Positions 44,479-61,492 of a stretch of 64,000 nt of DNA are shown in pieces. How positions within the stretch are numbered: position 1 is the first letter of the stretch; the number at the start of each line of letters is the position of its first letter. Both the position numbers and the translations under genes were made by a program. The stretch lies in contig NZ_CP011786.1 of the NCBI RefSeq assembly GCF_001263395.1, positions 62,001 to 126,000 on the forward strand, given 5' to 3'. The stretch is from Bifidobacterium actinocoloniiforme DSM 22766 (GTDB lineage: Bacteria > Actinomycetota > Actinomycetes > Actinomycetales > Bifidobacteriaceae). The notes beneath the pieces are model-generated. The model was not told where the DNA came from, did no database searches, and saw nothing but the letters and a program-made list of their open reading frames with translations.

Positions 44479-48684
<4,206 letters not shown>

Positions 48685-48704
48685 TAGCGGTCGCAGGTAG
48701 ATAA

Positions 48705-48750
48705 GTTCGGGCCCGCACCTGGCGCGCAGACGCTGGGTACGGGCCCGAAC
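48705..48750. terminator. terminator between rpoC and the convergent tgpA-like gene
   Basis: An 11-bp perfect stem (48705-48715 with 48740-48750), extendable by inner pairs, 20 bases after the rpoC stop. It lies inside the 3' coding part of the minus-strand gene, so on that strand it would be transcribed through before the stop codon is reached. Confidence 0.8.
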
Positions 48751-51234
48751 TGCGTGTTGGCCCCGTCGCGGCGGCTCTTGTGTGTTTCAGTGGTCTCCAG
48801 ACGCGCAAGCCCCAAGGCAGGGGGATGAGGCGCCAGGCCCAGCGGCGGAAGCGGCCCTTGGAACTCAGGAGCCGTACCGCCGCGCGATCTACGCTCTGCC
48901 AGTAGAGATCGGCCTCTTGGGGCGAGCAATCGGCTGTGCTGAAGGCCGCTTGGTCGGCCAGCAGAGCCAACGCATTGGCCGGGTTGGCTTCCGGGCCTGA
49001 CGCCCGCCCTGCCGGGGGACGCTCGCCTAGGGCAGCATGCAGTGATCGATCCAGCGTTTGGGCCTGCTGGCTGCGGGTTCTTCCACTGACTGGAACGCCC
49101 AGCCGCCTGGCCAGAGCGATGAGGAACCGCCAGCCTGCCAGGATGCGCTCGCGAGGAGTTCCGGTCAGCTTCAGCAGCCTGAGAGAGCGTCTGCTCGCCG
49201 CTGATAAACCTGCTAGCAGGCCGGTGCAAACCCATAGGGGCAGCGTCCATAGGGCCATAGCCCTCAGTAGGGGACCGACCCGTTCCCACCATCCCTCGTG
49301 CTTGGTCCCCTGACCGCCCGAACCCGCGTTCTGAGGATTGTCCACGCTTGGCGGCCCCTCGCGCAAGGGGTCGGACAGGGGAAGGGGAGGTCGGGCCCGG
49401 TTCGGTTCCTTCTGGCGCTCCGACCGGTCGGTCTGTGGGCGTCGGCTCTGCGGGGGAGTGGGGTGGAAGGCCACCCAGCCCAACCCCTCCAAATCCACCT
49501 CCACCCAGGCTTGCATGTCCTCGCCGGTGAAGGTCAGAGGGCCGTTCGGCTTGGGCGAAGGAACGCTTTGGGCTTCGGCATCGATCGCCGCTTGCCCTTG
49601 CTGGGGGAGGAAGCCTAAGACGACGCGGGCGCTCAGGCCCTCCTGCCGGGCCATCAGGGCCATCAGGGAAGCGTACTGCTCGCTGTCGCCGACCAGGGCG
49701 TCCGCTCTGAGCATCCGCTCGATTCGGTAGCTGCCATGGCCCGCTTGCGAAGGATAATCACCGGCTAAACCATGGGAGAACCAGCCTTCGGAGCGCAGGG
49801 CGTCGGCCAGATTCAGCGCCTTGCGCCCCGCGCTTACGCCTGGGGTTGTGCCAGCGAAGCGATTGGCGGCCTGGGTTAGGCCGGCGGGCGGTCGGTTCAG
49901 GGGAGGCTGGGTGACCGGGGCGGCGCGCGCGCTGGCGATTGCCTGGCGGGAGGGAGGTCGCGGGGGCAAGTGGCCCTGTTCCCGGTAGGAGAAAGGGCCG
50001 GCCAGTCCAGCGGGGGCCAAGGCCGCCGCAGAAGCTGCGTCGTAGTAAGCCTGGTCCAGAGGTACGGCCTGTGCTCGGTCGAAGCGCTCGGCATGGCCGA
50101 CGCTGGGCATCAGACCGGGCCCTAAACCTGCGTGAACGTGGAAGGTCGCCACAAAAGGCGGTCCCGCCGTTGGCTGCTCTTGCTGATTATCCGCGGCGTT
50201 GGGCTGCTGACGGCCTAACCTGCGGTAGCCGCCACCCTCGGTGGACCCCGTCCCGCCCACGGTCCATACCTGGCCGTCGAAGGCGTCCAAGACCGCCAGA
50301 CGAATCGGTGCGGGGCTGGGCAGACCCTCGACCTCCAGCAGCGGCTCTTGGCGAAAGTCCTTCAGATAAGCTCGGTAGGTGCTCAGGGGACTGGTCCGCG
50401 TGACGATTGAGGTAGGGGGCTGGTAGTGCTCGCGCAGGACCAGCCGTCTGCCCGGCGCAAGCCCTTGGACGCTCAGGGACAAGCCGCATGCGGTCAGGGC
50501 ACAGACCAGTTTCGCCGCGGCACGCCTCCGAAGCGGGCGGTCCGAAGACCAGAAGGCCAGCGCTAGGGCGAGAGCTAGGCCGGTCGGGCCTGTATGCCAG
50601 CCTTCCCTGGTCCCCAGGAAGGCGCTGGCCGCCATTGTGGCCAAGGGGACTACGGCTCCGCAGGCACGGGTTCGCGGCCATCCATGCACCTGGGATGGCA
50701 CTAAGGCCAGGCGGCCGGCCAGGTATCCGGTCCACAGCAGGAGGGTCCACAGGGCCATGCCGGCCCCTTGGGCGCGTCCCAGGGGAGGGTCTTCGCAAAT
50801 CAAGAGCTTGAAGCCGCTCACGGACGCCGCTAACCCCTGGCCTATGAGGCTTCCAGTCGGCAGGAATCCCCACAGATGACGCCCTGGCATGGCCAGGCTG
50901 GGGCCAACCAATAGCTGTGCCGCAAGGAGCAAACCGACCTGGGCCAGCCCAGGCAGTCGGGGAAGACGCGAGCACCAGGAGCAAGCGCCCGCCAACAGAC
51001 AGGCCGGCAAACCCAGGATCAGCCACAGTCCCCAGGACCCGTAGACAGGCGCCAACTGGAGCGAGGCCAGCAGATTGCACGCCTCCAGAGCCGCTAACTG
51101 GCAGGCCAACCGTCTAGGGCGCGGATTCGTCCGACTGTTGTGGGTGGAGCTGGGCCAATCAGCGCTGTTTGGCGAGGTCAACGATAGCTCCGGCTCCCAT
51201 TGGCCTGTAACAGGTGAACCACAACCAAGACCAG

Positions 51235-52482
51235 TCATGCCAGTGCCTCCAACAATGCCGGGAGCTGCTCCAAACAGCCAATGGAAGCTCGGACCTTCCA
51301 TCCGTCGATTGCGCTGCTGATTGCCGCGCCGCCGGATTGCGCGCCGTCAGCGTGCGAGCCCAGGTTCGCGGTCAGCAGCAGGATTCGTCCGCTGACTGGG
51401 TCGCCCATGCCCAGGAGCGCCCGCTGGACCTGACTTGCGACGGTGCGGGATCCTAGGACGCAGATCGCGGCGGATAGGGGTTGCGAGTCAGCGAGCTCCG
51501 CTGAATCATCGCGTTGGCTCAGCGCCGCTGGTTCCAAGGGGTTTCCATCCGGTCCGACCCAGTGCAGGGCGCTGCACCCGTCCAACCAGTCATCCGCCTC
51601 CTTTGGTGTCCACACGACTGATCCTAGGGTCAGCCGGGGGGCGCAGCCGCCGCCTAGGGCCGCCAACCCGAGCGAGGCCAGAAGGCTGACCGCAAGCTCG
51701 AATTCCGGTGCGCTAGCGTAGGCGTTCGGATTGGCGTCCAGCCAGAGTCCCAGCGCCGGGCTTTGGCGGGGCAGGTAGCGGCGGACCAGGAGCCTGCCTG
51801 TGCGGGCGGCGGAAGGCCAGTGGACCCTGCGCAGGTCATCGCCAGGTTCGTAGTCACGCAAGCTGTGGAAGTCCACGCCCTCCTCGGACCAATCGGATCC
51901 CCCTTCTTGGTCGGAGAGGAGGCCAGCTCCACTGGCTGCCTCCAGCGGCACGGTGCGGGGGTGGACGACCAGTCGTAGGGGGCCTGCTGCGGTCAGGCCT
52001 CTGGTGGACAGGCCGAGGGGGTCGTTCCGCTGGATGGTCAGGGGGCCGATCCACCCCATTCCTCGGCGGGCGGCGCGCAGGGTCACTGTGCGCCGCGCGC
52101 TTTGACCTGGTGCCAGTCGCGGCAGTGGCCATATGTAAGAGGCCGCGCCCGCTTTCAGGCGCACTTGGGCTCCGGTGGAACTTCTGCGGCCCGTGTTGCA
52201 GGCGGAAAGGGAGATTGTGGTCTCCTGCCCTGCCAGCAGGGTCAGGGATTCAGACTCGAATCCCGCTCTCAGGTCTGGGGAGTTGCGGGATAGGACCAGG
52301 CCGATGGTCAGAAGGGCGATTCCGGTGGCGGCCATGCTCAGCAGTTCGGCCCAACCCAAAGCCAGGAAGGCCAAGGCGCTGCCCGCTGTCAGCAAGCACA
52401 CGGCCCGACCCAGGGGGGTCAGACGGAGCCAGCTTTCCACAGGCCCGCAGTCCGTGCGTGGCTGATTCTCGCGCGCTCTCAT
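51235..52482 (-). CDS. DUF58 domain protein
   Basis: A 415-residue membrane-associated protein. Two hydrophobic helices (about residues 25-65) lead into a beta-rich part and the DUF58 signature DFHSLRDYEPGDDLRRVHW followed by ARTGRLLVRRY near residues 200-235. The C-terminal part has a von Willebrand A-like character but no full metal site that I can see. DUF58 proteins accompany MoxR ATPases and TgpA-like proteins and are thought to act in assembly or regulation of envelope complexes; the function is not known. Its ATG overlaps the MoxR gene stop by four bases, and its own stop overlaps the next gene, so the three are translationally coupled. Confidence 0.9.
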   Translation of the reverse strand: MRARENQPRTDCGPVESWLRLTPLGRAVCLLTAGSALAFLALGWAELLSMAATGIALLTIGLVLSRNSPDLRAGFESESLTLLAGQETTISLSACNTGRRSSTGAQVRLKAGAASYIWPLPRLAPGQSARRTVTLRAARRGMGWIGPLTIQRNDPLGLSTRGLTAAGPLRLVVHPRTVPLEAASGAGLLSDQEGGSDWSEEGVDFHSLRDYEPGDDLRRVHWPSAARTGRLLVRRYLPRQSPALGLWLDANPNAYASAPEFELAVSLLASLGLAALGGGCAPRLTLGSVVWTPKEADDWLDGCSALHWVGPDGNPLEPAALSQRDDSAELADSQPLSAAICVLGSRTVASQVQRALLGMGDPVSGRILLLTANLGSHADGAQSGGAAISSAIDGWKVRASIGCLEQLPALLEALA

Positions 52483-53846
52483 GCGTCCAGCCCGCCCTCG
52501 GGCACAGGCACGGATTGAATGACTTCATCTATTGTTTGGAAGAGGTCGGCGCCGTCCATCCGGGCCTGCCGGTTCAGTTTGATACGGTGAGCCAGCACCG
52601 GCTGCGCGAGGGTCAGCAGGTCGTCAGGGATAACGTAATCGCGTCCGAGCGACGCGGCCCACACCTGGGCCCCGCGCACCAAGGCCAGACCGGCGCGGAT
52701 GGATGGCCCGGTCTCGATTGACTTGCTATGGCTGCAGGCCTCCAGAAGACGGGTGACGTATTCGAATATCGGGGCGCTGCAGTGGACGGAGGCCGCGGTG
52801 GCTTGCAGCCTGTTGAAGCCAGCGCGGTCAATGATTGGATCCAGACGGGAGGCCCTGTCCCGTAGTCGGGACTGGGTCAGAATTTCCAGGCTGGCCTCGT
52901 GGCTGGGCGGGCCTAGGCTGACCCGCAGCATGAAGCGGTCCAGTTGGGCCCCGGGCAGGGGATAGGTGCCTAGCTGGCCTTGAGGGTTCTGTGTGGCGAT
53001 AACCAGGAAGGGGTTGTCCATCGCATAGGTGTGCCCGTCCACGCTCACCCGGCCCTCCTCCATGACCTCCAAAAGCGCGGATTGTACCTTGGGCGAGGCC
53101 CGGTTGATTTCGTCCGCCAGCAGGACGGACGTGAAGACGGGGCCGGGGCGGAAGGTGAAATCCCCGCTGCGCCGCTGGTAGACGCTGACCCCAAGCAAGT
53201 CGGAGGGCAGGAGGTCGGGGGTGAATTGAATCCGCCTGCGGTCCAGGCCTAGAACCTGGGCCAAGGCCCGGGCCAACTGGGTCTTGCCGGTGCCCGGCTC
53301 ATCCTCCAGGAGCAAGTGACCCCCGGCGATCGCGGCTGTCAGACAGAGCCGGACCGCTTTGTCTTTACCGACCACGGCCTCGCTGATGGCGGTAAGGAGT
53401 TTCTCGAAGGTTCGACGGAAGTCGTCCGTATCGGCTGGGTGGATGGATGGACTGCGCTCGCGGATGCGCTGGGGCCGGTCAGGGTCCGTTCCAGTTCCCG
53501 CGCTCCCGCCTCGGCCGGTGGTGAGGTTGGTGTCGTCGTGGGGGTGGCCTTCGGCGCAGGCGCTCAGACCAGGTAGCTTGGTCTGGTCGGACGGGTTGGA
53601 GCGGGCGGGTGCTAGGGGGATGCTGGTGTCGTCCGGCGCCCGCTGATCGGCGGCTGCCCCGAACGTGGGGCTCAGACGGGTGGCATCGTTCAGGTGACCG
53701 CTGCCGGGCGAACGGGTGGCGTCGGGCAGGGGACCGCGGGCCGGCGGGCGGCTGGCGTCAGGCAAGCGCGTGGCGTCAGTCAGACGGGTGCCGTCGCTCG
53801 GCTCGGTGATGTCCCTGAGTGAGGGGGTGTCAGTGCCTGCGGCCAT
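52479..53846 (-). CDS. MoxR-family AAA ATPase with repetitive N-terminal extension
   Basis: A 455-residue ATPase. The AAA+ core begins near residue 145: Walker A EDEPGTGKTQ (Lys188), Walker B LLADEINRAS, sensor ATQNPQGQLGTYPLPGAQ and the C-terminal lid. MoxR ATPases act as chaperones maturing metal- or vWA-containing complexes, with DUF58 proteins as partners. The first 140 residues are unusual: six D-x-T-x-L/I motifs at Thr20, Thr26, Thr56, Thr74, Thr89 and Thr106, plus degenerate ones, in Pro-rich disordered sequence. Such motifs could be phosphorylated by the kinase of the cluster and bound by FHA domains. The ATG lies one base beyond the FN3-gene stop. Confidence 0.9.
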   Translation of the reverse strand: MAAGTDTPSLRDITEPSDGTRLTDATRLPDASRPPARGPLPDATRSPGSGHLNDATRLSPTFGAAADQRAPDDTSIPLAPARSNPSDQTKLPGLSACAEGHPHDDTNLTTGRGGSAGTGTDPDRPQRIRERSPSIHPADTDDFRRTFEKLLTAISEAVVGKDKAVRLCLTAAIAGGHLLLEDEPGTGKTQLARALAQVLGLDRRRIQFTPDLLPSDLLGVSVYQRRSGDFTFRPGPVFTSVLLADEINRASPKVQSALLEVMEEGRVSVDGHTYAMDNPFLVIATQNPQGQLGTYPLPGAQLDRFMLRVSLGPPSHEASLEILTQSRLRDRASRLDPIIDRAGFNRLQATAASVHCSAPIFEYVTRLLEACSHSKSIETGPSIRAGLALVRGAQVWAASLGRDYVIPDDLLTLAQPVLAHRIKLNRQARMDGADLFQTIDEVIQSVPVPEGGLDA

Positions 53847-53847
53847 A

Positions 53848-56800
53848 TCATCGCCTGCCTTCCAGGGTGATCAGTGCACGGGCGGTCGGGGATGTGTTGG
53901 AGGGCGGCTGCCCTTGGGCCCGGGTCACGGCTTCCAAGGTGATGGTGTTCAGGCCCGGATCGACTGGCAAATTCAGGACACCACCAAGGCTGGCGCCCTC
54001 CTGCGCGCATGGCCAGGAGACGGTCATCGCCCGCGCTCCTTGACTGGCCGTCAGATCCACGGCCTGGCAGGCCCCGCCATGCAGACGCCCAGCCTTGAGC
54101 GTGACTTGGACCCTTCCGGGCGGCCAGCCGGGCTGATCGTGGAGGACCTGTTCGAAGACGGGCGCGTCTGGACTTGACCAGCTGGCTCCGACCGCTGTAG
54201 CCGCAGGCCCGGAGCCCGCTTGATTACTGGCGTTGACGCTGATGGTGCAGGTTGATCCCGCGGCGTCATGGGGCACAGCCAGGACCGCCTGAGTGGATGA
54301 GGGTGACCGACCCATGATTGGCCCACAACCCGGGCCGGAAGCGTTGACCTGGTAACTGGTGATCCTGCTGCCCCGGTTGCGCGCAGGACGCCAGGAGACG
54401 CGCAGCTCCTCTTGCGCGCTGCCGTCCACGATCAGGCCTTCCGGGGCTTGCGGCCTAGCGTCCGGCCGGGCTGCCAGCGGGGCCGAGGGATTCGACCAAC
54501 CTTGGGCATTGCGGGCGCGCACCATGAAGGAGTAAGTTTGAGCGTTGACCAGACCGCCGAGTGTGCAGGAGTTGGCTTGACCGCAAGAGTGGGAGCCTGA
54601 GCCGGCCGGGCTCTGATAGGTCACCTGGTATTCGAGGATGGGTGACCCCATAGCGGCCCCAGGAATCCAAGCCAGCGAAACGGAGCCGTCCCCAACCACA
54701 AGGCTCGAAGCGAGCAAGGAGGGTGGGCGAGGACGATTGATGAAGTCCACTATTATGCTGGCGGTCACCCGCCGTTCGGGCGCTCCGGTCCCATCGGAGA
54801 CCGTCAGTATAACCCGTCCGTTGGCGGCTTCGACGGGGTCGCTGGCGTTGAGCTCGACCCACCCACCGGTTTGGATGCGGGCGGTCAAACCAGGCTGGTC
54901 GCTGGTCGCTGCGGCTAGTGAGAGGGGGCGGTCAGGCAAGGGGTTGTATGCCCCGTCGAGCGCGTTCAACCGTATGCCATGGCCGGCGGCCAGGCTGATC
55001 CGGCGGTCGGGCACTGATGCCAAAGGCTTACGGCTGGCCACGATTCGCAGGGTCAGGGCCGTCTCCAACTTGCCGCCTGGGTAGCGGATAGTGAACGGCA
55101 GCCTTACCCGCTGCCCCAGGGCGGCATTCCGACTGGCCGAGAAGGTCAGGTCGCCGTCCGGACGCAGCCTGGCCTGGATTGGCCCTTTGAAACCGGGACT
55201 GTCGTAAATCAGCGCCTTGGCCTGGGCCTGTGAGGTGGTGCGCGTCAGCTTTTTGAGCGCCAGGTGCTGGGTCTGGCCGCCCGCCTCCAGGTCGATCAGT
55301 GGCGAGGTGAACGTCGGCGGCGCGCCGTGCTCGCCGTTGACCTCGATCGGGAGGGTGAGCACGGCTTGGCTGCCTACGGCTGAGGACGGGCCTTGGGCTG
55401 CGGCGGTGAAGGTGATTGAGGCGGGGCCCGAGTAACCGTGAGCGGGGGTGAAACGCAGGTGGTCCGGGTCCAGGTAGGGGTCTGACCCATCCGACTTGGT
55501 GGCTTGCACGGACTTGGGGGAAACGACCCGTACAGGGGCTGAGCCCGCCTGCGCGTAAGCGGAGACGGCGATGGTCAGGCTGGAGCCGGCTGCTACGGTC
55601 AAGGGCGGGGCGTGAGGGTTGGGGCTGGGCCTGAGCGAGCCGACGGCGGGGAGGCGAATCAGGGCGATGGAGGAGACGTTGTAGCGGGTGTTGGTCACTG
55701 TGTATGGGATGGCGCGCGCGCTCGGGGAGGGGTTGGCTGTGAGCGTCCAGGAACCGGAGGACTCCCGCAGGTTGGCTTGATCCTGGGCTTGGGGGCCTAG
55801 ACTCAGCGTCAGGTCGCTGTTGGGTCCGGAGGGATTGGCGATCAGAGCGTCCATGCTGCGCGCGAACCTCCCTCCCTCCCAGTCCGCCGATGTCAGCGAG
55901 CAGTCGCGCGCCTGGGGCGGTAGGATCGGGGCGTCCGGGCTGGTGGAGACCCGCAGGCTGGCCTGGTCGGCCATTCCAGCGGCATTGCGCACGGTGTAGG
56001 TCAGATAGGATTCGCCGGTCTGACTGGGGCTGGTCAGATGGATACCGCCCTGCCGGGCGCTGGCTCGTAAGGGACCGGCTCCCTCCAGCTGGGGGTCCAG
56101 CCTGGCTTCCAGCCCGTCCGAGCTCACGTCGTTGCCGGTCACGGGCACGTCGGTTTGGACGCCTGGCCGCAGTCGGACGTGGTCGTCTCGGGCCATCAAT
56201 CCTGGCGCCTGGTCGCTGGGGGCGATGCCGACCCGTATGCGCGCCTGTGCGGGCTGTCCGGTCCAGTCTTCGACCTGGTAGGTGAACTCGTCGGTCCCAC
56301 GAGAGTCCGGGTAGGCCTCGTAGAGCAAGGATCTGTCGCTGGAGCCCAAGACGCGGCCCCGCCGGGGCAGCTGCGAGCCCAGGCCCACAAGCGCGGTGTC
56401 ATCGCCGTCCTGGTCGATGCCGGTCAGGGGTATCGGTATGCGCACTTGACCGCCGGCCACGGTGCGGGCCTCCAGGTCACGGGGCCTGCTGGGCGCCTTG
56501 CCTTCGGCGCGGCTGGGGTGGATGTCTATGGTGATGCTCCCCCTGGCGGAGCCGCCGCCAGGCTCGCTGACCGTGTAAGTCAGCCGGGCTCGGCCAGCCT
56601 GGTCGCCGGCCAGGTACCGCACGCTTTCGCCGCTGACGAAAGCTTGGCCGGGCGGGTTGCCTGCATCGGCCTCCAGTTTGGGCGACAGGCTGACTTGCGC
56701 GCCCGTGGGCGAGCTCACGTGGTCCATGACGGCGATGGTCAGGCTCCCTCCCTGACGCACCTGGGCCTGGATGTCGCTGGCCCTGAGGGCGGGCTGGGCC

Positions 56801-59238
56801 GACTGCCGCGCGGCGGGTAGAATCGTGATGCTCGCCTGACTGGAGCCGGCTTGGTTGGCCGCCTGGTAGCGAATCGTCACCGGGCCGGTCAGGCTACGCT
56901 TGGCCTCCAGTCTGACCCACCGGCCCTCGGCCACGCCCGCCTTGATTCCGCTGGCGTCGCTGGTATCGACCCCGGTCAAGATCAAGGGCCCTCCCGTGGG
57001 GTCGAAGTCATTGGCCAGGGGGTCCAGGCTGGCCTGACCGGTTTGATCCAGGACCGCTGTGTCGTCGGCAGTGATGGCCGTGGCGCCTTTGCTTGAGGCC
57101 TCTATGGCTTGCAGGCGGATGAGCCCTTGGGACTTGCGCCCAGCTTGGCTGACGGTGTAGGGCAGGTAGTAGTCGCCAGGTCGCTCGGCCCGTGCGCGCA
57201 CGGTCAGGGAGCCGGGCAGGGGATTGGTCTCGACGCCGGGACAGTGCTGGATATCGTCGAGTTGCAACGGCGAGTTCGGGTCGGCTTGGACGGCGGGGGA
57301 CAGGTTGATCTCGCTTGTCTGACCGGCCACGAGCCGGAGGACCAGGGGACCGGCCACTGGGGCTTGGCTACCCGTGGCAGAGACTTGGCAATCGATGAGG
57401 GCGCTGCTCGTCGCACGCCCATCCGAAACCTGAACCTCCAAGCTGGCCGGCCCGGCGGCGTCGTTGGCCGCATGCACGTCCAGTCGGCCGTCGGCCCGGA
57501 CGGTCGCGGTCAGGGGGGAGGCAGGCCGGGTTTGGACCGCGAGCAGGGCCAAGGGGTCGCCGTCCGGGTCCGTGAACCCTGCCAAGGCGTTCAGGCTGGT
57601 CCCTGATCCTTCCGCTATCCGGCAGTCGGGCGACGGGCCGGTCCAGGCGGGCGGACGGTTGTCGGACCGGGGCAAAACCTGGAGCGCGATGGAGGCCGAT
57701 GAGGAGTGGCCCCGTCCGTCGCTGGCCGTGTAAGAGACGCGCACACTGCCAGGTGGCAAATCCGAGGCGTCCACTTGCAGGAAGCGGCCCCCGCCGGCAG
57801 GCTCGGCCCGCAGGCGCTGGTCGCTGGCCGTGGCGCGGCTGATCGAGGCCAGCGCGCAGCCGGTCTCCTGGTCGTTGGCTAAAGGGTCCAAGAGGGCCCG
57901 GGAGCCTGCGCGCACGGCTAGGTGGTCGTCCTCGGCCCTGATTGAGCCTTCCTGCGCCTTGCAGGATGCGCTGAAGTCCGTTGGGTCGGCATCTTTCTGG
58001 CGACCTGTTTGGTGGACCTCGGCCGCCTTAGGGTCGGCTGGGTCCCAGCTCAGGTTGACTGCCTGGGCGGCGGTGTCAGGGTCCCAGACCGAGCCTGATT
58101 CGATGTCGTTGAGCACCACTTGGCGCTTATTGGCGCGGAACATCAGCCGTGTGCCGGGCGTGATCGAATCCAGGCTGCGAATGGGCCCATCCCCAGGCTT
58201 GCTAGGGGCGGATGGCCGGCCCCCGTCGGTCCCGCATAAACGGGTGAAATTGCGGGCTTGGCTGGACCACGCCGCCCACAGGCAGCCTCCTGAGGAGACC
58301 GGCCTGGCGGGCCGCCCGGTGGAACCGGTGGCGATGGTTTCCAAGCTTCCGTCCGCTTGATCCAAGTCCGCGATGAACACATGCCCCTGGTCGGTGGCGG
58401 CGATCCAAGAGCCTTTCTGGTCCTGGTCAACGGGAGAGGACTGGAGCTCGAGCGGCCCTTGACCGGGCAGCTGGACGCTGCCGTTCTTCCAGCGCATGGT
58501 GCGGCCGGAGAGTACGACCGCCTGTCCTTGGACGACGGCTAGGGCGTCCGCGCTCAGCCTCCGTCCGCCAGTCAGGGAGGGGCCCTGGTGGATCGTGCGG
58601 GCGGCGGGGTTGCTCAAGGTCAGTACGGCGCCGTCGTCAGCCCGGTACCCATAGAGCGTGCCGTCCGCCCCTATGGCCGCTTGGCCTCCCCGGCCCAGGG
58701 CCATGACCGGGTCCGCGTGCGCCAGGTCGGGGGGAGGGAAGGAGGCGCTTCCTGCCCAAACCTGACCGGTTCGTTGGTCGAAGGCTGCGAGGGTGCCCGC
58801 GGACAGGAGTGGCTTGACGCTGGCTGGGGCATCGGTAGAGCCGGACGTTTTGAGGCTCACCGGGTCGATTGTGGATAGGCGTCGTCCCTGTCGCAGAAAG
58901 GTGCGTCCGCCGCTCTGGGCCAGGTCCAGGCTGGGGGAGGGAGCGGGCAGCATGGCGTCGGCCTCGCGGATGCGGGGGTTGAAACGGGCCAGTTTGCCTT
59001 TGCTGGCCGAAGCCACCCAGACCGTGCCGTCGTCCAAGTCCGCCTGCTGCCGATTGCTGACCGGCACCAGGATGACCGCCGTGGCCAGGGCAGCAGCCAG
59101 GAGGAGGGCCAAGGCTGACCGGAGGCGAAGAGCCGTGCGGGGGTCGCCCTTGGATTTTCCCCAGGACGGGTTTTGCCGCCAGCGGCGGTCCTTAGTGGGG
59201 CGGGGTCGTATCGTCGCCCATCCATATGCGTCAGTCAT
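53848..59238 (-). CDS. fn3: giant Ig-like/FN3 surface protein of the PFNA cluster
   Basis: A 1796-residue single-pass protein. About 40 cytoplasmic residues, a membrane helix (about 41-62), a region of short strands like a beta-propeller (about 65-400, with DGTVWVAS and GGCLWAAW), and then many Ig/cadherin-like repeats (phrases such as FTDPDGDPL, LANDFDPTGGPL and VTGNDVSSDG) up to about 1490. Two fibronectin type III domains follow at about 1500-1590 and 1594-1689, the first ending GWSNPS. It ends in a beta domain with two Cys. In B. longum the equivalent FN3 protein has been linked to host interaction. No LPXTG signal is present. It lies between the kinase and MoxR genes on one strand. Confidence 0.88.
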   Translation of the reverse strand: MTDAYGWATIRPRPTKDRRWRQNPSWGKSKGDPRTALRLRSALALLLAAALATAVILVPVSNRQQADLDDGTVWVASASKGKLARFNPRIREADAMLPAPSPSLDLAQSGGRTFLRQGRRLSTIDPVSLKTSGSTDAPASVKPLLSAGTLAAFDQRTGQVWAGSASFPPPDLAHADPVMALGRGGQAAIGADGTLYGYRADDGAVLTLSNPAARTIHQGPSLTGGRRLSADALAVVQGQAVVLSGRTMRWKNGSVQLPGQGPLELQSSPVDQDQKGSWIAATDQGHVFIADLDQADGSLETIATGSTGRPARPVSSGGCLWAAWSSQARNFTRLCGTDGGRPSAPSKPGDGPIRSLDSITPGTRLMFRANKRQVVLNDIESGSVWDPDTAAQAVNLSWDPADPKAAEVHQTGRQKDADPTDFSASCKAQEGSIRAEDDHLAVRAGSRALLDPLANDQETGCALASISRATASDQRLRAEPAGGGRFLQVDASDLPPGSVRVSYTASDGRGHSSSASIALQVLPRSDNRPPAWTGPSPDCRIAEGSGTSLNALAGFTDPDGDPLALLAVQTRPASPLTATVRADGRLDVHAANDAAGPASLEVQVSDGRATSSALIDCQVSATGSQAPVAGPLVLRLVAGQTSEINLSPAVQADPNSPLQLDDIQHCPGVETNPLPGSLTVRARAERPGDYYLPYTVSQAGRKSQGLIRLQAIEASSKGATAITADDTAVLDQTGQASLDPLANDFDPTGGPLILTGVDTSDASGIKAGVAEGRWVRLEAKRSLTGPVTIRYQAANQAGSSQASITILPAARQSAQPALRASDIQAQVRQGGSLTIAVMDHVSSPTGAQVSLSPKLEADAGNPPGQAFVSGESVRYLAGDQAGRARLTYTVSEPGGGSARGSITIDIHPSRAEGKAPSRPRDLEARTVAGGQVRIPIPLTGIDQDGDDTALVGLGSQLPRRGRVLGSSDRSLLYEAYPDSRGTDEFTYQVEDWTGQPAQARIRVGIAPSDQAPGLMARDDHVRLRPGVQTDVPVTGNDVSSDGLEARLDPQLEGAGPLRASARQGGIHLTSPSQTGESYLTYTVRNAAGMADQASLRVSTSPDAPILPPQARDCSLTSADWEGGRFARSMDALIANPSGPNSDLTLSLGPQAQDQANLRESSGSWTLTANPSPSARAIPYTVTNTRYNVSSIALIRLPAVGSLRPSPNPHAPPLTVAAGSSLTIAVSAYAQAGSAPVRVVSPKSVQATKSDGSDPYLDPDHLRFTPAHGYSGPASITFTAAAQGPSSAVGSQAVLTLPIEVNGEHGAPPTFTSPLIDLEAGGQTQHLALKKLTRTTSQAQAKALIYDSPGFKGPIQARLRPDGDLTFSASRNAALGQRVRLPFTIRYPGGKLETALTLRIVASRKPLASVPDRRISLAAGHGIRLNALDGAYNPLPDRPLSLAAATSDQPGLTARIQTGGWVELNASDPVEAANGRVILTVSDGTGAPERRVTASIIVDFINRPRPPSLLASSLVVGDGSVSLAWIPGAAMGSPILEYQVTYQSPAGSGSHSCGQANSCTLGGLVNAQTYSFMVRARNAQGWSNPSAPLAARPDARPQAPEGLIVDGSAQEELRVSWRPARNRGSRITSYQVNASGPGCGPIMGRSPSSTQAVLAVPHDAAGSTCTISVNASNQAGSGPAATAVGASWSSPDAPVFEQVLHDQPGWPPGRVQVTLKAGRLHGGACQAVDLTASQGARAMTVSWPCAQEGASLGGVLNLPVDPGLNTITLEAVTRAQGQPPSNTSPTARALITLEGRR

Positions 59239-59356: not shown

Positions 59357-61291
59357 TCAGGGGAGGGTGGCGCAGATGCGAGCTGGCTGGTTGGAGATGC
59401 GTTGGTCGGCGCGTAAAAGGGCCACTTGGATGCAGACGGCCCGTTCCTGCCCCGCATTGACCTGGGTCTTGGGCTCGCTGCTGCGCTCGGCCCCGCGCCA
59501 ATCGGCCTGGCCGTCCTCGGGGGCGGTGGCGGGCACAGTCTTCCACAGGTAAGCGTCGCCGGGCTCTGGAGCCGGGTTCGACCAGGAGAAAAGCGCCAGG
59601 CCCTCATGCAGATCCCCTCGTCCCGCAGTCACCGTGGGCACGCTGGCAGGGGCGGATTGGCCGATCTGATCCCCGCTGGACCCGGTGGAGGAGGGCAAGG
59701 AAGAAGAGGCGCTGAACCCGGCATTGCCGGTCCCTGCGGCCCCGCCTGCTTCGCCAGCCCGTTTGGCCGCCAGGAAGCCAACGCCCAAGGACAGGACCGC
59801 AGCCAGGAGGCAAGCCAGGGCGAAGACGGCTGCCCGGCGCAGCCCCCATGCCTGCTGACCGCTGATCGGGTGGCCGGAAGCGCTTGACGGTCCTCGAGCA
59901 TGCGCTGGTTGGGCCCTCAGACTCCGCAACCAGCCCAGTTCGGAACGCTCGCTCCCCTTCCCCTTGACACGGTTTGCCTCTGGGGCGGCTGGTCGCGAGC
60001 CACCCAGCGCATCCAGGCGGCCGGCCGACCCCGTCCGAGCGCTTACTGGCCTTCGGGCGTTCGTGGAAGTCGCGATTCGTCCGCCAGACGGCTTCCGCAC
60101 GACCCGCGCGGCGGTGGCGGGAGCCTGGTCCTCGTCGAAGGCCCGAGCGTCCGCTTGATTCCCATCGGATTCACCCTTGCTCGCGTCGCTCCGTCCATCC
60201 GATTGCTTGAACCCGGAGCCATCCGCGTAGCCGATCCGCGCGCGCTCGCCGCTTTCACCGCCTTCTGCTGAATCCAAGTCCTCGGAATCAGCGCTGCCAA
60301 GATCCGTGTTCCCGTCGCCAGCCCCAGTCGTCGCCAGCGTCGCGTCCCTCTTTTGCTTTCTCGCACTGAGGCGCCCCGCCATGCCCAGCTCCTCTTGACT
60401 GGGGTAGGGGTCCGCCCCCCGCGCGACCAGAGGCGTCATATGGCCGTAGAGCCGGGCCTGGAGCACCTGCATGTCGCGGCCGAAATCCAGGGAGGAGAAG
60501 TAGCGTTCCTCGCGGTCGTGGGCCATGGCCTTGTCAAGCACCCGCTCGAAGTCCGGCGAAGCCTCGCCCCGCCGTAGCCTGGGCGGTCCCTCATGCTCGA
60601 TGAGCTGGGCGAGCTCCTGCTCATCGCGTACCCGGAAACCATACTCGTAGGGAGATTTTCCCGTGAGCAGGCCGAAGATGGAGGCGCCCAGGGAGTAGAT
60701 GTCCGAAGCCTCGGAGCCTCCGGACTTGTGGGCTATGATTTCGGGAGCGGCCCAGGGCACGGACAGCCCTTTGGCTTGGGAGGCCGTGTAGGTGGAGGCC
60801 GAGATGCCGAAATCGGACAGGACCGGCAGGCCGCGCGTGGTGACCAGGAAGTTGCCAGGCTTCACGTCGCGGTGGATGATGCCCTGCTGATGGGCGGCGT
60901 AGAGGGCGGAGGCGATGCGCACGCCGAGGTCCAGGGCGCCGCGCTCGTCCAGGCGGGTGGTTTTCATGATCCGCTTGTAGTTGCCGCCGGGCGCGTACTC
61001 CATCACGATATAGTCGCGCCCGTCATGGCTGACGCCGGCTGAGAGGATGGTCAGGATGGCCGGGTGGGCCGACAGGCGCGCCATGAACGTTGCCTCTTTG
61101 AGGAAGAGGGCGTGCGACCGGTCTGAGGCCCGCCGCTTGCTTACCTTGACTGCCACCAGCCGTCGGGGCTCCAGCTGCCGGTAAAGGTAGACCCAGCAGG
61201 TGCCCCCCTGGCCCAGGGGCCGCAGGTAGAGGTAACCGCTGATTTGCGGGGCGCCCTCGACGGCGGACTCGGTGTCCTCAGGGTCCGCCAT
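59357..61291 (-). CDS. membrane Ser/Thr protein kinase (Pkb2-like)
   Basis: A 644-residue Hanks-type kinase heading the PFNA-type cluster. The kinase domain (about 18-285) has the glycine loop GQGGTCWVY, Lys49 in VAVKVSK, HRDVKPGN with catalytic Asp142, DFGIS and the P+1 loop SVPWAAPE. A Ser/Arg/Glu-rich juxtamembrane region (300-480), one helix (about 488-508) and a 135-residue outside domain follow. PASTA repeats are absent. It presumably phosphorylates envelope or cluster proteins such as the Thr-rich MoxR N-terminus. The ATG at 61291 is chosen because GGAGGAGG precedes it; an upstream GTG would add six residues and contain that site. Confidence 0.93.
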   Translation of the reverse strand: MADPEDTESAVEGAPQISGYLYLRPLGQGGTCWVYLYRQLEPRRLVAVKVSKRRASDRSHALFLKEATFMARLSAHPAILTILSAGVSHDGRDYIVMEYAPGGNYKRIMKTTRLDERGALDLGVRIASALYAAHQQGIIHRDVKPGNFLVTTRGLPVLSDFGISASTYTASQAKGLSVPWAAPEIIAHKSGGSEASDIYSLGASIFGLLTGKSPYEYGFRVRDEQELAQLIEHEGPPRLRRGEASPDFERVLDKAMAHDREERYFSSLDFGRDMQVLQARLYGHMTPLVARGADPYPSQEELGMAGRLSARKQKRDATLATTGAGDGNTDLGSADSEDLDSAEGGESGERARIGYADGSGFKQSDGRSDASKGESDGNQADARAFDEDQAPATAARVVRKPSGGRIATSTNARRPVSARTGSAGRLDALGGSRPAAPEANRVKGKGSERSELGWLRSLRAQPAHARGPSSASGHPISGQQAWGLRRAAVFALACLLAAVLSLGVGFLAAKRAGEAGGAAGTGNAGFSASSSLPSSTGSSGDQIGQSAPASVPTVTAGRGDLHEGLALFSWSNPAPEPGDAYLWKTVPATAPEDGQADWRGAERSSEPKTQVNAGQERAVCIQVALLRADQRISNQPARICATLP

Positions 61292-61492
61292 CCTCCCACC
61301 TCCTCCCACAGGCCGTTTATCCAGGTAATTCTATGCGCACGGGGGGAGCGGCCCGCGCGTCCCTGGCCCGGTTGGGTTCCGGGGGCTCGGGCGCGGTTGG
61401 TGTACAGTGGCTCAAAACCCATCGCGCCCAACGCGTCCCACCATCCAGAGAAGGGACCTACGGGGCGAACGAGTGAAGACAAGGCGGAATCA

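Follow-up and report, generated by a model that had tools for sequence, protein, structure and literature searches.

Phospho-switches of the GarA/OdhI type are built on the motif ETTS, and in OdhI the residue T15 is phosphorylated by PknB (PMC2784874, PMC12321487). FHA domains select phosphothreonine (pThr) and mostly fail on phosphoserine, and in Sulfolobus the FHA protein ArnA has been proposed to read multiply phosphorylated ArnB (PMC6509490). While MoxR ATPases are widespread, their control is largely obscure. In bifidobacteria, a MoxR is encoded in the PFNA cluster, which has been proposed as a host sensor, and the substrates of the cluster's Ser/Thr kinase, Pkb2, were reportedly first described in a 2018 paper. 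Pkb2 of B. longum is reported to phosphorylate the PFNA MoxR, at the level of the whole protein (PMC8430577, PMC6803598); its substrates include many other proteins, and Ser is also among the residues that it phosphorylates (PMC8430577).

We analyzed a 64,000-nucleotide stretch of the chromosome of Bifidobacterium actinocoloniiforme DSM 22766 (hereafter the window; NZ_CP011786.1, positions 62,001 to 126,000), and coordinates below are those of the window unless marked otherwise. Five genes run in a single direction, on the minus strand, in the order pkb2-fn3-moxR-duf58-tgm, which is that of the five core PFNA genes: the kinase Pkb2 (59357..61309; PF00069, E 1.1e-37), an FN3-domain protein (53848..59238; fn3 and Big_9 domains), MoxR (53846..52479, 455 aa), a DUF58 protein, the usual partner of MoxR (51235..52482), and the transglutaminase-like membrane protein TGM, encoded by the last gene of the cluster (48581..51301), the latter two identified by domain search. 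An earlier, preliminary description of this locus had placed a Ser/Thr kinase two genes upstream of moxR, and this is the arrangement found (fn3, then pkb2). Its suggestion that the cluster kinase acts on MoxR stands for the whole protein, given the B. longum reports, but not as a novelty, since the kinase–substrate step is already known for that ortholog. The cluster does not take the eight-gene PFNA form: neither prpC nor fha follows tgm, and the next gene is rpoC, in convergent orientation. The tgm (minus strand) and rpoC (plus strand) frames overlap by ~100 bases at their 3' ends (48581-48684), where the last TGM residues look unusual.

The MoxR reading frame divides into a conventional ATPase and a long N-terminal tail. 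Its core and lid (52479..53441, minus strand) contain an AAA_3 domain (PF07726, residues 177-307, 197.9 bits against a curated cut-off of 27) and an AAA_lid_2 domain (PF17863, residues 374-439, 69.4 bits against 22.7), with 2r44 as the closest solved structure (fold match E 1.9e-31); the protein is a MoxR AAA+ ATPase whose core is otherwise ordinary, as had been noted. The tail (residues 1-135; 53442..53846, minus strand) is rich in Pro, Ala, Asp and Thr and is predicted to be disordered. An AlphaFold model agrees with the disorder previously ascribed to it, with pLDDT below 50 at almost every position of residues 1-131 and a MoxR core modeled confidently from about position 137 onward, though the underlying alignment had zero rows over the tail and the low pLDDT is only soft evidence of disorder. 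Since GC3 is similar in tail (0.81) and core (0.79), a GGAAGG/AGG stretch lies just 5' of the ATG, and both reading frame and motifs are conserved in relatives, the tail is coding sequence.

The most distinctive feature of the tail is a series of D-x-T-x-[LI] motifs, all read from the minus strand: DGTRL (residues 18-22; 53781..53795), DATRL (24-28; 53763..53777), DATRL (54-58; 53673..53687), DDTSI (72-76; 53619..53633), DQTKL (87-91; 53574..53588) and DDTNL (104-108; 53523..53537). All six exact copies counted in the preliminary description thus fall within the first 108 residues, accompanied by two degenerate copies, DASRP (30-34; 53745..53759) and DATRS (42-46; 53709..53723). When the 135 residues of the tail were shuffled 200,000 times with composition preserved, the count never exceeded four. 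A scan of all 1676 ORFs of the 1.83 Mb genome put the overall frequency of the motif at 0.41 per 1000 aa; outside this MoxR, no ORF exceeded two copies in any 140-aa segment. Chance clustering is ruled out by these two comparisons. Within the cluster, Pkb2, DUF58 and TGM contain no array, just single hits at the background rate.

We gathered orthologous PFNA MoxRs from the same genus and the wider family, for a total of 56 tails (the start codon of some was assigned by rule). The motif, in the form [DE]-x-T-x-[LIVM], was present in 55 of the 56, and at least two copies were found in 50, some tails having one copy and others perfect runs such as DDSTVLSDSTVLSDSTVLSDKTRLSDETVLSDATQLG (L160). In L169 and L184, two apparent exceptions, a single open frame spans fn3 and moxR, and the array is present as well, beginning at an internal Met. 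This fusion resembles one reported for B. breve and may be apparent only. The array was absent from same-genus MoxR paralogs outside the PFNA cluster (L021-L030, L137-L141) and from the 80 MoxRs of other bacteria that are closest in sequence; the motif tail is thus an innovation of the bifidobacterial PFNA MoxR. A species-specific quirk is ruled out by the 55 of 56 orthologous tails that carry the motif, and a general MoxR feature by its absence from the outside MoxRs and the non-cluster paralogs. The paralogs of L137-L141 come from five same-genus genomes with a different, tail-less MoxR, and no full PFNA cluster was detected within ~10 kb on each side of it.

Evolution within the tail is uneven. 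Among 12 close relatives, alignment columns holding the motif D and T were 75% invariant with an N/S of 0.69, the remaining tail columns 30% invariant with an N/S of 1.89, and other Thr columns of the tail 0% invariant with an N/S of 3.71, compared to 88% and 0.21 for AAA core columns; this comparison is partly circular, as motif columns were picked where most sequences retain the motif. The conservation check proposed in the preliminary description, a comparison of MoxR N-termini across bifidobacterial PFNA clusters, therefore came out in favor of its claim: the array is retained, the sequence between motifs drifts, and the acceptor is strictly Thr. The variable MoxR tails of L005-L017, and also those of L004 and L012, contain a further conserved block, RLDVLKRQRQALMAGLGQ (RILQRQREAMLGGLG in L004), which is absent from the MoxR tail of the window. 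It is probably a short helix that binds some partner.

The consensus over all tails, S-D-[AES]-T-[RVQH]-L-[SGA]-D, is selective for Thr. Across a non-redundant set of 30 tails, the motif was observed 101 times in its Thr form versus 8.1 expected by shuffling, and 3 times in its Ser form versus 7.3 expected, with Ser about as abundant as Thr in the tails. Ser should be tolerated at a site that served a kinase alone but not in an FHA ligand, so the Thr-only grammar points to an FHA ligand, and the array is Thr-specific and Ser-intolerant in the manner of an FHA-ligand (pThr) array. Against this, the classical selectivity position of FHA domains is pT+3, and the conserved hydrophobic residue in these tails is at +2. 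In the window's genus, 35 of 91 [DE]xT sites retain the +2 hydrophobic, compared with 150 of 207 elsewhere in the family, as if the constraint had been loosened where the cluster FHA protein is absent; the window species itself retains six good copies despite the looser +2 in its genus.

At its end, the PFNA cluster of relatives encodes a PP2C phosphatase and an FHA protein (see also PMC8430577); the FHA domain of the latter was confirmed by Pfam. Directly before this domain, W-D-[GS]-T-V-L-S is invariant in all 18 cluster FHA proteins, and 8 of the 18 also have D-x-T-V-[MLI] near the N-terminus. The 5-mer DSTVL is identical in MoxR repeats and the cluster FHA protein in four species, and D[GS]TVL is about 550-fold denser in MoxR tails than in the window's proteome (1.9 versus 0.0035 per 1000 aa). 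Since relatives' cluster FHA protein carries the same motif, the FHA part of the docking reading gained independent support. By sequence, the best solved-structure relative of the cluster FHA proteins (L160:2945-3631 and others) is archaeal ArnA.

The genome of the window has no FHA gene in its PFNA cluster and four FHA proteins elsewhere on the chromosome: GarA (with AGETTII at the place of the switch motif), an FhaA-like protein, an FhaB-like protein and an FHA-LRV protein. We considered the window's own FHA protein L034 as the missing cluster FHA but found no support for this, as only the FHA domain matches (~40 bits) and WD[GS]TVLS is absent. A Pfam domain search found no FHA domain in the MoxR of the window, so this MoxR could only be the ligand of a GarA/OdhI-type phospho-switch and not a member of that class. 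The genome also encodes a second Ser/Thr kinase of 772 aa (C1:1369538-1371856, within L258), with a linker containing AGETTQVLGG, EDATTLAGL and AEKTWVGG, three copies of the same [DE]xTx[LV] grammar; this linker may be a further FHA docking site.

These patterns bear on several explanations of the tail. That it is a multisite kinase substrate with no dedicated FHA reader, the added charge altering ring assembly, ATPase activity or the DUF58 contact, seems unlikely, though it would account for the phosphorylation of the B. longum ortholog by Pkb2 (PMC8430577), for the absence of an fha gene from the window's cluster, and for the flanks of the acceptor, acidic upstream and hydrophobic downstream, which are compatible with kinase recognition. 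Such a substrate is difficult to reconcile with the scarcity of the Ser form (3 versus 7 expected) when Pkb2 is reported to act on Ser too (PMC8430577), and with the cluster FHA protein also carrying the motif. We consider it quite improbable that the motif acts as a short linear motif that binds some partner independently of phosphorylation (e.g., DUF58, the kinase or another cluster protein). Conservation of Asp and Leu around the Thr does resemble a linear binding motif, and GarA-type FHA proteins also contact partners without phosphate (going by the title of Nott et al. 2009, as given in PMC12321487), but the strict preference for Thr over Ser is hard to square with this explanation, and the motif recurs next to an FHA domain and in the linker of a kinase, which suggests phospho-signaling. 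Repeat drift, in which a functionless low-complexity tail grows by tandem duplication, is disfavored as very unlikely: it could produce the perfect 6-aa tandem copies of some species (SDSTVL, SDATRL) and the fast evolution of the tail, in line with the positive selection reported for PFNA genes (PMC6803598), but in the window and many species the copies are dispersed and differ in codons and residues, motif columns are retained while other tail columns drift, and single conserved copies also occur in another protein, the cluster FHA protein.

We favor, with reasonable though not strong confidence, the reading of the MoxR tail as a kinase-written, multivalent pThr docking strip for an FHA reader. 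The docking tail envisaged in the preliminary description is well supported on comparative sequence grounds, insofar as the array is conserved, is Thr-only and shares its motif with the sequence beside the cluster FHA domain, but it is weakened for the window itself, where the cluster lacks fha. Also counting against this reading are the lack of an array in Pkb2 itself and the many other proteins among the reported substrates of Pkb2 (PMC8430577). We infer that the motif Thr would be the phosphosites, that FHA binding would occur there (because the motif is common to the MoxR tail and the cluster FHA protein) and that the ATPase would be affected. Pkb2, the proposed writer, or a sister kinase would phosphorylate Thr within [DE]-x-T-x-[LIV] of the tail, and an FHA domain would then recognize the pThr. 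For most of the family, the natural candidate for this role is the FHA protein encoded at the 3' terminus of the PFNA cluster; its W-D-[GS]-T-V-L-S segment would compete as an intramolecular ligand, similar to the ETTS switch of GarA/OdhI, and PrpC, the phosphatase of the cluster, would remove the mark. The cluster fha is absent from the genome of the window, which leaves GarA, FhaA, FhaB and the FHA-LRV protein as candidate readers there. Because MoxR ATPases are usually hexamers, one ring could display dozens of sites and so gather the FHA protein, or whatever cargo it carries, at the ATPase and at DUF58/TGM, and loading of FHA onto the ring and its DUF58/TGM partners would be switch-like.

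For clusters that include fha and prpC, we suggest more tentatively that the genes might constitute a complete phospho-relay of kinase, phosphatase, an FHA reader self-bound through its internal copy of the motif, and a ring bearing a six-tailed pThr brush. The FHA protein would shift onto the ring upon phosphorylation, and MoxR/DUF58 at the membrane would come under switch-like control tuned by valency, with motif copy number set in each species. From sequence alone, the [DE]-x-T-x-[LIV] rule would link a kinase, an FHA protein and a MoxR ring in bifidobacteria, and it makes several ideas testable: a substrate motif for Pkb2, a ligand for the cluster FHA protein, and the loading of AAA+ machines by multivalent pThr arrays in bacteria.

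Set beside the described systems, the locus is closest to the bifidobacterial PFNA operon (pkb2, fn3, aaa-atp, duf58 and tgm, with prpC and fha in some species), with which it shares five core genes identical in order and families; it differs in that the descriptions of the operon consulted contain neither the motif array nor the motif shared with the FHA protein. Across the literature searched, a scope that most subscription papers fell outside, we found no description of the array, its Thr-only grammar or its match to the cluster FHA protein, and a large phosphoproteome study of bacteria contained no data on bifidobacterial MoxR. The core fold and lid are those of MoxR Proper AAA+ ATPases with DUF58 partners, unlike the tail, which the nearest 80 outside bifidobacteria do not have. 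ArnA–ArnB resembles our proposal in that a prokaryotic FHA reader has been proposed for a multiply phosphorylated partner, with sites of the IETT type, but ArnB is a vWA protein with its sites in a helix bundle, whereas MoxR is an ATPase with an array predicted to be disordered. With GarA/OdhI, the motif has in common an acidic residue at -2, the Thr and an aliphatic residue at +2, and that system has, as we propose for the tail, a PknB-type kinase as writer and an FHA domain as reader; however, GarA combines motif and FHA domain in one protein and at one place, whereas in the PFNA cluster the motif is carried by a separate AAA+ ATPase, MoxR, in up to eight copies.
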